Assembly (NCBI GenBank): GCA_022600605.1
Contig: JAHZKD010000133.1
Coordinates: 1-42,414, forward strand
Source: Actinomycetes bacterium
GTDB taxonomy: Bacteria > Actinomycetota > Actinomycetes > Mycobacteriales > Mycobacteriaceae
DNA: 42,414 bases
Direction of reading: 5' to 3'
Below are positions 1,787 through 42,138 of this stretch, one piece after another. The notes below the pieces were generated by a model, which did not search any database, was not told the DNA's origin, and was given only the letters and a program-made list of their open reading frames with translations. The translations under genes were made by a program, and so were the position numbers. Position 1 is the first letter of the stretch. Every line of letters starts with the position of its first letter.

Positions 1787-3032
1787 CTAGTGGCCCATGT
1801 AATCGTGATCCCCAATACTTACCGCCTCCCAGCTTCTCTGGTTGCGAGCGTATTGAAGATGAGCTCGGATCTTTCGGTCCACTCGGACGGAGTAGCAGCC
1901 GGGGCCACCGTTTTTCCACGGTTTGAAGTTGAGGCCCGGCGGTTCGGTCGATTTTTCCAGCATTGATCGGCATTTTGCCCATTTGGCCCGTATCGGTTTG
2001 TCGAGCCGTTGCAGTTCTTTCAGAAATCGTTTTGTCTCGGTGATATTGGGAACCGACTGGAACAGGTCGATATTGATCCCGAGTAGTTGCAGCAGGTCGT
2101 GATCGTCGAGGATGAAGAATGGGGCATCGGTTCCACGCTATGCGCGTGATGCCGGGGTATAACTGACTGGAATCAAGTCCCGGTGGAACTGCCCATTCCG
2201 GATCCACGACCGAGGCGTGTTGAAACTGGGCCGACAGTTCCTGGCACCCCCCGACGTAGCCACTGCGATTTTTTGCGTATTGGGGCGCGAGGTCATAGCC
2301 AGCAGGTTGTCTCTTGCAGTAGTCGACGAGGGCGGCGTACCCGCCACCCGATTTACGCAGAACCCCGCCTCCTGGCCACCTGAAGCCCCGGAGCATGTAG
2401 GCATTGGCCAGGGCTTCCTCCAGCTCGACGTAACCCGCAGCGTTCCGGTAAGCGGTCTTTGCCTTCCAATAAACTTCCCGTCCCGACACCAGTTCCCAGT
2501 TGGCCGCCATGCAGTCGGTGGCGAAATGGAACAGTTCGTGCCTGAAGATGGCGTGGAAGGCGAGTTCAATTCTCCGCTCCATGCTGACGGGTAGACCGGC
2601 CAGAGCATCCCTTGCCATGACGAGTATGCCCTTGATGGGGATGTAAATGCCGTGCTGGTAACGCTGTTGGTGGAAGGTCATGTACCACCCGAGTGCATCT
2701 ATTCCACGGACTTGTTCGAGCCGTTTCATGTCGCCGCCGTCGTGCTCACTGAGGACGTTGTCAATCTCGGCCTCGGTGACAGCGGGCGGGACTTCAAAAA
2801 CGACGCTGGGTTCGTCGGAGAACTCATCGTCGCCATCGGGCCAATCGGGGTTATCCGGCACCGAGTCGACGAGGAATCCGCCTCGGTCTGGAGTCCATAT
2901 CGGAGTCGCCCGGTCGTTTCCTGCCCTAACGTCTTCGGGAAGCGGCTCATAACGAAGCGCACCAGGCACATCTTCCAGCGCCATCCGGATCTCACGAACC
3001 GAAGGAACGCGACCGTTTGTCATGGCTGACAT
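1787..3032 (-). pseudogene. HELFH metallopeptidase-like protein joined to a ParE/RelE-like toxin domain, frameshifted
   Basis: From the ATG at 3032 the frame is convincingly coding for about 300 codons. It then changes frame near 2120-2150, after RIAWNR, and continues as APFFILDDHDLLQLLGI to a TAG at 1787. The downstream part has no start codon of its own before an internal ATG, so this looks like one gene with a frameshift. The N-terminal half has FRHELFHFATD (about residue 163), a zinc-metallopeptidase-like HExxH variant, followed by a helix with glutamates (ELEEALANAYMLRGFR) that could hold the third metal ligand. The C-terminal 80 residues (LNFKPW, YSVRVDRKIRAHL, WEAVSIGDHDYM) match the RelE/ParE toxin fold, with its typical IGxHDxY ending. 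The annotated 474-aa ORF beyond the shift is a shadow. A sequencing error or recoding cannot be excluded. Confidence 0.65.
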
Positions 3033-14538: not shown

Positions 14539-14621
14539 CCCGGTTCGCGGATCGCCCCACCGATCGCGGGCTGCCCGTGTCGAGATGCAGGAAAGATTGA
14601 CGAGAAACGTCGAGCTGCTTT

Positions 14622-15126
14622 GACGAGAACCAGCCGTGTTGGGCTCTTCTCGGTACTTTTCTTCATAACGGTGAAGTGCTCGCCGACGCGGTTCAACGCA
14701 CCCTGCACGGGTGAGCGGGTATCTAGGGCCTGGCGCCTCGGCAGTTACAGGTATTCGACGGACTCGGCCTCGAAAGGCGGCTGGGTGTCATCCGCGGCTC
14801 ATGTCTGCGTCATCCCGGTCGAGCGATTCGAAGGACGCTTTCCGAATCGCACCGCACTGGTCCCGATTGGGGATCGTGGCGAACTGATCTGTGACCACCC
14901 CGAAATGATCGAACTGGCGCTGGAGGACTTACGCGCACGTGATGAAGACAAGCTCGATCCGGACCGTCCACTCGGGGAAACCTTCACACTTCAGCAGCTG
15001 CGATTCCTGCACGGATCAGTGGACGGCGAGACGAGTAGGACTCGGCGGCGTGCATTGCGGACACTAACTAAGCCTGCGAGCGATATGGACCAACGTGCCA
15101 CTCGCTCCCTGTTTCAATGGATACCC
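14622..15126 (+). pseudogene. Nudix/NrtR-like gene, inactivated by stops and a frameshift
   Basis: One frame reads WALLGTFLHNGEVLADAVQR, a Nudix-like entry, followed by TLHG*AGI*GLAPRQLQVF with two stops (TGA, TAG). The next frame reads GWVSSAAHVCVIPVER, ELICDHPEMIELALEDLRAR and GETFTLQQLRFLHGSV, the helix and winged helix of NrtR-like proteins, and ends with SLFQW. The start of the gene is missing. In the ORF track this material appears fused in frame to the SIR2 gene (14620-16701). I read that as an accident of the frameshifts. The TGA overlapping the ATG at 15127 would be the original stop. It lies between a nuclease gene and an NAD-related effector, a suggestive place for an ADP-ribose sensor or hydrolase. 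Confidence 0.65.
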
Positions 15127-16701
15127 ATGAGCGGGCACCTCTTTGTCCTACGGGGCGATCTGACGCACCTTCGCTGTAGCGCAGTCCTGGTTCCCTGCGA
15201 CAGCCGGTGGTTCGTTGTGTGGGACCACTGGTCTCAACTTCTTCCCGACGATCGCTTAGGGCCACGTAATGCCAGGGGTTGGAGGGCCCTGACCGATGGC
15301 GGCACGGGACGCTTCGCCGACCTGGTCACCGACGGCGACAAGTGGGTGCGCCTCGTCGTCACCGCCAGTACCGAAAGGTTCGACAGTCCCGAGGCGAGGG
15401 CAGGCTGGGTGTCACAGGGCGTCACTTCTGCGATCGCCGACCTGTCGACGCGCGGAGTTCCCCTGCCAGCCGGCCGCATAAAGCCGCTGATCGCTCTGCC
15501 GCTGGTCGGAACTGGAGCCGGCGGTTTTGAGACAACGCGGGGCGTACTCATTCATGAGCTACTCCCCGCGCTGATCAAGGCCGCACGCGAACACGATGTC
15601 GACATCGCGCTCGTGTTGATAGATCAACGCGACCACGCCGCCGTCCAGGCGGTACGAACAGACTACTGGGCCGAGTTCGCCGAAGAGCAACCTGAAATCG
15701 CTGAATACCTCGACATCGCCGACGAACTGGGACGCCGGGCTGCAGACGGAGAGCTATCACTGTTCCTGGGATCGGGGGTGAGCGTTCCCCTCGGCCTCCC
15801 GGACTGGAAAACCCTCCTTTCGAACATTTCCCCCTTCGCGATCGACTTTCAGGCCGAGACCCTGCAGCAGATCGCCAAGAACATCGAGCATGCAATCGGC
15901 AGAGACGAGTTGGAACAACGCATCGTGCGCAACGTAAGGGTCGATGGTGTGGCGCCAGCGCACCTGCTGCTGGCTGCTCTTGCGGTCCCCCAGGTCGTAA
16001 CGACCAACTACGACACCGCATACGAACGGGCACTCGAGACAACTGAAGGAAGAGGCAAATACCGTGTGCTCACAGGACAACTCGCCCTACAAGGGCACCC
16101 CTGGCTGTTGAAGTATCACGGCTGCATCAACCGCCCAGGGACCATCGTCATCACTACTACGGACTACGAGGAACTCAAGATTCACTACGGCGCGCTCCAG
16201 GCCGTCGTGGAATCGCTCATGATCACCAGCCATCTCATGTTCGTGGGTTTCAGCATGGAAGACGAAGAATTCGTCGACGCGGCGAGAAGAGTCAAAGTCG
16301 TGCGAGATCTCGCTGAAGACAGCAATTTATCCTCTGTGGCAACCGTTTTAGCTCTGCATCCACACGCCGTCTCCACGCTCGCGGGCTTCGATATCGTGCC
16401 CATGCTCAATGACCCAGATAGTCCTAAAGAGGCGGCGCGGCGGCTGGAGATATTCCTGGACCGCGTCTCGTGGAGAGCCACCACGAAAGGTCCGGCATCG
16501 AGCTCGTACTTGCTGCATCCCGACTACCAAGACCTCTTCGCCAAAGATGTCCCGACCAACAAATTCCGCGAACGACTGTTAGAACTGGCCAACGAACTAG
16601 AAACTGACTACGCCTTCTGTCACAGCAGTAGGGGGTGGAACCAGGTAACCGAACTCCTTGCCCAACTGGGGAGACGATCATCAGATCAGCGGTCGCCGTG
16701 A
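15127..16701 (+). CDS. Macro-like plus SIR2-family protein
   Basis: I choose the ATG at 15127 (CCATGAGC), giving 524 aa, because the residues before it belong to the Nudix remnant. Residues 1-175 resemble a macro/ADP-ribose-binding domain: LFVLRGDLTHLRCSAVLVPC at the start, then LIALPLVGTGAGGFETTRGV near 120. A SIR2 domain follows: LSLFLGSGVSVPLGLPDW (about 212), the NAD-binding GAG-type loop, then VVTTNYDTAYERAL with the usual T-N-D, LKYHGCI with the catalytic histidine, and FVGFSMED. SIR2 proteins of this type deplete NAD in abortive-infection systems such as Thoeris ThsA or DSR. The gene ends the helicase/nuclease cassette. Pairing an ADP-ribose binder with an NADase in one chain suggests self-control by the reaction product, which is inference. 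Confidence 0.8.
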   Translation: MSGHLFVLRGDLTHLRCSAVLVPCDSRWFVVWDHWSQLLPDDRLGPRNARGWRALTDGGTGRFADLVTDGDKWVRLVVTASTERFDSPEARAGWVSQGVTSAIADLSTRGVPLPAGRIKPLIALPLVGTGAGGFETTRGVLIHELLPALIKAAREHDVDIALVLIDQRDHAAVQAVRTDYWAEFAEEQPEIAEYLDIADELGRRAADGELSLFLGSGVSVPLGLPDWKTLLSNISPFAIDFQAETLQQIAKNIEHAIGRDELEQRIVRNVRVDGVAPAHLLLAALAVPQVVTTNYDTAYERALETTEGRGKYRVLTGQLALQGHPWLLKYHGCINRPGTIVITTTDYEELKIHYGALQAVVESLMITSHLMFVGFSMEDEEFVDAARRVKVVRDLAEDSNLSSVATVLALHPHAVSTLAGFDIVPMLNDPDSPKEAARRLEIFLDRVSWRATTKGPASSSYLLHPDYQDLFAKDVPTNKFRERLLELANELETDYAFCHSSRGWNQVTELLAQLGRRSSDQRSP

Positions 16702-42062: not shown

Positions 42063-42138
42063 TGGTGGAGCTAAGGGGACTCGAACCCCTGACCCCCACA
42101 CTGCCAGTGTGGTGCGCTACCAGCTGCGCCATAGCCCC
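42063..42138 (-). tRNA. tRNA-Ala, anticodon GGC
   Basis: The reverse strand folds as a complete cloverleaf. GGGGCTA pairs with TAGCTCC in the acceptor stem (one G-T pair), GCGC flanks the D loop, CCACA and TGTGG flank the anticodon loop CTGGCAG, and the T-arm reads GGGG-TTCGAGT-CCCC. The anticodon is GGC, reading GCC alanine codons. A discriminator A and encoded CCA (42063-42065) follow. The gene is intact despite the island at its 3' end, because the island carries a copy of the target segment. Confidence 0.96.
42065..42090. repeat. Right attachment-site repeat within tRNA-Ala
   Basis: This is the partner of the repeat at 115-140, identical over 26 bp. It covers the 3' acceptor strand and half of the T-arm. 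It marks the right end of the island. Confidence 0.93.

Follow-up and report, generated by a model that had tools for sequence, protein, structure and literature searches.

The window that we analyzed, a stretch of 42,414 nucleotides from an actinomycete of the family Mycobacteriaceae, contains a broken gene that joins a peptidase-like domain to a RelE-type toxin domain. This gene runs on the minus strand from its start at 3032 to its stop at 1787, and its two domains are encoded in frames that are one base apart. Five relatives encode both domains in a single uninterrupted open reading frame, and in some mycobacteria the gene is found directly behind the two genes of a type III Druantia defense system. 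On balance we lean towards the view that the family is a rare defense accessory, in which a domain with a metal site holds and gates the fused ribonuclease toxin.

The N-terminal part of the broken gene (2136-3032, minus strand, 299 codons) is 48-53% identical to intact homologs over about 290-300 amino acids. It includes HELFH, an instance of the HExxH motif, at residues 165-169 (2526-2540), followed by EEALA (the start of EEALANAYM; 2406-2420), whose distal glutamates are candidates for the third metal ligand; EE, both alanines, and M are invariant in the alignment. The C-terminal part (1787-2137, also on the minus strand) has 116 open codons and a stop, and it comprises the RelE-type domain and a short lead-in. 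It is 42-55% identical to the C-termini of mycobacterial relatives and it matches the RelE-like toxins of PHROG (phrog_1213, E = 1.3e-6). The profile match covers 1802-2044 (residues 32-112 of P0003, at profile positions 5-84 of 88), and the tail contains the motifs YSVRV (1880-1894), RAHL (1856-1867), and IGDHDYMGH (1790-1816), after which comes the stop codon. Given the identities of both parts and the PHROG match, this feature is not due to chance. A 58-residue reading frame that had been listed in the initial annotation (1787-1963) is just the terminal piece of the 116-codon open stretch.

The N-terminal frame stays continuous from 3032 to about 2130. It aligns to the homologs through ..RIAWNRCP, and the C-terminal part aligns from P[F/I].I..D onward, with zero residues missing at the junction, which places a single frame change within about 2120-2132 (minus strand). 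This is where the protein alignment changes frame, and the homologs are uninterrupted there. Third-codon-position G+C declines in the N-terminal frame at the same site, which in the window copy is a short single-base run. The initial annotation had described an HELFH domain and a RelE-like end on either side of a single frame change at about 2125-2130, and the alignment to homologs bears out both the arrangement and the site.

The five uninterrupted homologs (four from mycobacteria and one from another actinobacterium) are each a single protein of about 390-425 amino acids with both domains, so the earlier reading of the two parts as one gene is correct. Three of the mycobacterial homologs (L003, L004, and L005), which were found by scanning genome contigs and which account for the 48-53% identity given above, are unbroken reading frames of 408-410 codons. 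Genome searches gave a fourth intact mycobacterial copy (L010) and a homolog from another actinobacterial family (L019), which is about 30% identical and has the identical layout in an intact single reading frame. It follows that the fusion is real and that the gene is broken in the window copy. Furthermore, with L010 and L019 added to the first three, the fusion must be old, and no frameshift is needed to make it. We reject the idea that the two parts are separate genes, as the relatives never show such an arrangement, linked or unlinked.

Other mycobacterial copies are broken too. In L011, the RelE end is lost where sequence adjoining a transposase-like gene begins; in L012/L016, the frame breaks inside the N-terminal domain; and L014 (G235) consists of the C-terminal part alone, close to the end of a contig, with no N-terminal part ahead of it. 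(A partial reading frame in G637, L020, was too weak and was left out.) The gene is rare and often broken, and its repeated independent loss among mycobacteria fits a costly defense or toxin gene. Wide samples of the class, the phylum, and Fibrobacterota yielded few or no further members. We also reject an origin in phages or plasmids, because tblastn searches of plasmids and phages with several members as queries, and a scan of viral contigs, did not find any member of the family. We slightly favor the idea that the gene has been scattered horizontally.

The initial annotation had offered decay, sequencing error, or recoding as the cause of the frame change. We favor decay, because about 24 kb of neighboring Dpd genes are unbroken and because other copies are broken elsewhere. 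Since the frame change parts the two domains, this genome probably does not produce the complete fusion. If the change were instead an error of assembly or sequencing, then the gene would be intact in the genome itself. The source is a draft MAG (565 contigs, 88% complete, 7% contaminated) and the change sits in a short single-base run, but the roughly 24 kb of Dpd genes on the same contig show long unbroken reading frames and the related mycobacterial copies were broken by other means, so we consider an error to be improbable. The single-base run might also suggest programmed frameshifting, which would yield an N-domain product as well as the fusion. But none of the five intact homologs requires a shift at that point, which rules out recoding as a feature of the family, and we give programmed frameshifting in this copy almost no credence.

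Judging from a structural model and from conserved residues, the C-terminal domain is a RelE-fold member of the RelE/ParE (BECR) toxin superfamily: fold, profile, and conserved basic and histidine positions all fit. In the AlphaFold2 model of L004 (mean pLDDT 67.8), the C-terminal domain has the higher confidence, with region 320-400 mostly at pLDDT 68-94. Foldseek matches this domain to RelE structures with probability 1.00 (target TM of 0.75-0.76 for RelE from M. jannaschii and 0.70 for RelE2 from M. tuberculosis). The PHROG RelE match is found in seven of eight family members, while the result for ParE_toxin from Pfam (0.011) is below Pfam thresholds. R91, H93, H111, and H116 are invariant over the eight rows of the alignment, and the window copy retains all four. 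We take R91 to correspond to R61 of RelE, and H111 and H116 to lie near R81 and Y87, based on the order of the motifs rather than on superposition. The end of the protein had been called ParE-like; given the Foldseek and PHROG results, RelE-like is the better label. Within the superfamily, the domain is like the RelE/HigB branch in its fold and in its arginine and histidine positions. It differs from that branch in that the toxin is fused behind a peptidase-like domain, most copies have no evident antitoxin, and the domain falls below Pfam thresholds. The insecticidal protein Txp40 (PDB 7xbj) was the best match by E-value in the structure search, yet its whole-length TM is 0.2 and we rejected it. 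As a separate observation, C-terminal residues 322-365 of Txp40 (about 45 residues) resemble the RelE end of the family, both in a weak profile match (E = 0.08) and in the structure search.

The H, E, and H of HExxH are invariant in seven relatives with as little as 26% identity, including a HicA-fused member and a member from Fibrobacteres. Across these relatives, the invariant positions of the N-terminal domain are D, WY, H, HExxH, E, EE..A.A.M, and P..Y. An HExxH motif with a downstream glutamate, as in gluzincins, is thus found in all seven rows. The pattern is gluzincin-like, and "peptidase" is a prediction from these motifs. The domain had no sequence matches in Pfam, NCBIfam, PADLOC, or PDB, and its model, which is mostly helical and of low confidence, did not match a zincin or any other fold in PDB. 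We also rejected membership in the M78/ImmA family (no Pfam match; HHalign, run with an M78 set of just four sequences, gave a probability of about 0). A search for Lit-type U49 peptidases gave no match for the domain and none in the controls either, so its result carries no weight. It is quite possible that the domain is not a peptidase at all, but rather an all-helical metal-binding domain or a purely structural antitoxin in cis, with HExxH as part of some other metal site. The mostly helical model, the missing match to the zincin fold, and the missing profile link to M78 would all fit this. On the other hand, the residues that are invariant are HExxH and a distal glutamate, like those of gluzincins, and with models of such low confidence a missing fold match says little.

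The N-terminal domain is thus joined to two or more RNase toxin folds that are unrelated, RelE and HicA among them, because a distant mycobacterial relative (L015) has a HicA toxin domain in place of RelE (Pfam HicA_toxin, 29.7 bits versus a cutoff of 27). A relative from Fibrobacteres (L006) has the N-terminal domain and no recognized toxin end. We also note that an XRE-family HTH gene (L015:2550-3263) lies directly after the HicA-fused relative; it might be a regulator or an antitoxin.

In five mycobacterial loci (L023, L024, L026, L027, and L028), genes for a protein of about 1120 amino acids and a helicase of about 1540 amino acids come first, and the gene follows directly as the third on the same strand. 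PADLOC identifies the helicase as DruE (E = 3e-184) and has no match for the first protein, which we assigned as a DruH homolog by its length, by the gene order, and by comparison with the type III Druantia of M. smegmatis, where DruH has 1132 amino acids and DruE has 1667 (MSMEG_1253/1254; PMC13316683). The protein lengths and the order agree with that system, and the paper does not mention a third gene, a toxin, or a peptidase. In the three loci with a clear start, the gap between DruE and the gene is about 50-70 nt. We found DruH homologs in 22 of the 394 mycobacteria sampled, and 19 of the 22 are close. The fusion lies behind DruE in 5 of the 19 close DruH-DruE loci, an overlap with a hypergeometric P of about 2e-5 if genomes are taken as independent of kinship. 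The other 14 loci have varied genes at that place, so Druantia III does not need the gene, which is at most an accessory. The window copy's own genome had no DruH match.

Most members of the family neighbor known anti-phage systems, and these are not limited to Druantia. The HicA-fused copy starts beside the DISARM genes DrmD and DrmMI, and the Fibrobacteres member adjoins a type IIG restriction enzyme. The window copy shares its contig, at a distance of some 14 kb, with queuosine-type genes and a Dpd defense system (7-deazaguanine in DNA; 17137-41613; DpdA, DpdB, DpdD, DpdE, DpdF, DpdH, and DpdJ by PADLOC). One could see in this a selfish toxin cassette that hitchhikes in defense islands and has no joint function with Druantia. 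That the gene is found beside such different systems (Druantia, DISARM, Dpd, and type IIG restriction-modification) and that it is rare and often broken would be expected of a passenger. We still find this rather unlikely, as the gene is directly downstream, on the same strand and in the same order, in five loci that are divergent (their DruH proteins are 53-66% identical to the one from L023). Around the window copy itself, a tRNA-Ala is found at 42063-42138, and 31 bp at 115-145 match its 3' end (30 of 31 positions agree with the copy near 42065-42094). Because the end of the tRNA is partially repeated near both ends of the window, the region may well be a genomic island, about 42 kb in size, that has integrated here, with the broken gene just inside the border at 115-145. 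A SIR2-like (ThsA-like) gene at 14620-16698 lies beside the near-complete Dpd system.

How might the intact protein work? The gene would encode one protein of about 400 residues, with a gluzincin-like metal motif in its N-terminal domain and a RelE-type ribonuclease toxin as its C-terminal domain. No same-strand, antitoxin-like small gene is evident beside L003, L004, L005, or L010 (in gene tables with reading frames of at least 60 codons), so the RNase would have to be held by its own N-terminal domain or by partners such as DruH-DruE. (Downstream of L019 there is a small reading frame, of 110 amino acids, that could encode an antitoxin.) We propose that the N-terminal domain would keep the RNase inactive in cis and that, once phage infection is sensed, it would free or position the RNase, possibly together with DruH-DruE. 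The released RNase would stop translation and the infection would abort. Release upon infection, via conformational change or cleavage, seems most likely, and the evidence does not separate cleavage by a peptidase from a change of shape. That the protein binds metal, acts as a peptidase, is toxic, is gated, and aborts infection is in each case inferred. CapRel, as summarized in a survey of HicA (PMC10865869), sets a precedent, as a fused toxin whose restraint and release upon phage infection both occur in cis. Some observations sit less easily with this proposal: the N-terminal domain is unmatched, 14 of the 19 DruH-DruE loci are without the gene, L019 has its small reading frame, and L006 has no recognized toxin end.

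Alternatively, the RelE-type domain could be a targeting module that binds the ribosome, RNA, or DNA, and the N-terminal domain, as a peptidase or another metal enzyme, could be the effector that acts on a target from the phage or the host. In favor of this, most copies have no antitoxin gene alongside, L006 has no recognized toxin end, and these islands also encode a UvrD helicase with a fused RelE-like stretch (L023:12385-14679). However, basic and histidine residues at the catalytic positions of RelE-type toxins are invariant, and the swap of RelE for another RNase toxin, HicA, suggests that RNase activity matters. We think that a targeting role is unlikely. As for the gated toxin, a more far-reaching form of the idea is that these are modular defense proteins with a metallopeptidase-like sensor or gate and exchangeable RNase ends, which act as the third, suicide effector of Druantia III and as accessories to DISARM and Dpd, and in which self-cleavage frees the toxin. 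We would be surprised if all of that were true.

Multidomain BECR-fold RNases in defense operons are already known, and ptuZ is a close parallel. It is the third gene of the ptuXYZ defense operon and likewise encodes a two-domain RNase toxin (PIN-like plus BECR RNase; Gerdes 2025, PMC11980606). But the N-terminal domain of PtuZ is PIN-like rather than of the HExxH type, and its partner genes encode DUF262 and PtuA-like proteins instead of DruH and DruE. That survey omitted many multidomain relatives because the antitoxin was absent or there were too few members (PMC11980606), which fits the present family. HicA Class 13 fusions, with 340-440 amino acids and a helical N-terminal region (Gerdes 2024, PMC10865869), match L015 in size and layout and, by that comparison, may be the same. 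In that article, the N-terminal region is called a large HicB domain and a peptidase motif is not mentioned; the present gene carries RelE. The COG2856/M78 (ImmA/IrrE) peptidases, with their Xre and RelE or PIN neighbors, also tie the idea of an HExxH peptidase to RelE toxins (Makarova 2009, PMC2701414). Those are separate genes, whereas ours is a fusion, and its N-terminal domain has no profile similarity to M78 and no HTH. The literature that we found mentions neither a peptidase-like RelE fusion nor a third gene of Druantia III. Fused toxins that restrain themselves are a growing theme in phage defense, and the trigger is known for few of them. With a natural fusion of an HExxH domain to an RNase, in which the RNase is exchanged between two unrelated toxin families, one could directly test whether toxins are activated by proteolysis. 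The fixed place of the fusion behind DruH-DruE in several mycobacteria suggests an optional third effector for a two-gene system that has been studied recently.

We also noticed a conserved, defense-like cassette that faces the Druantia III operon (L023:10083-17740, L024:2907-7127, and L028:13-7431). It includes a type IIG/DrmMI-like methyltransferase, the RelE-like-UvrD helicase, and a HEC-05-like protein of the DUF262 type, and parts of it are also present in L055 and L064. The slot behind DruE may be a general accessory slot. In L055-L068 its content is variable, for example a von Willebrand factor protein (L057), a GIY-YIG-looking protein (L062), and unknowns, and in L064 an Exo_endo_phos protein faces the slot.
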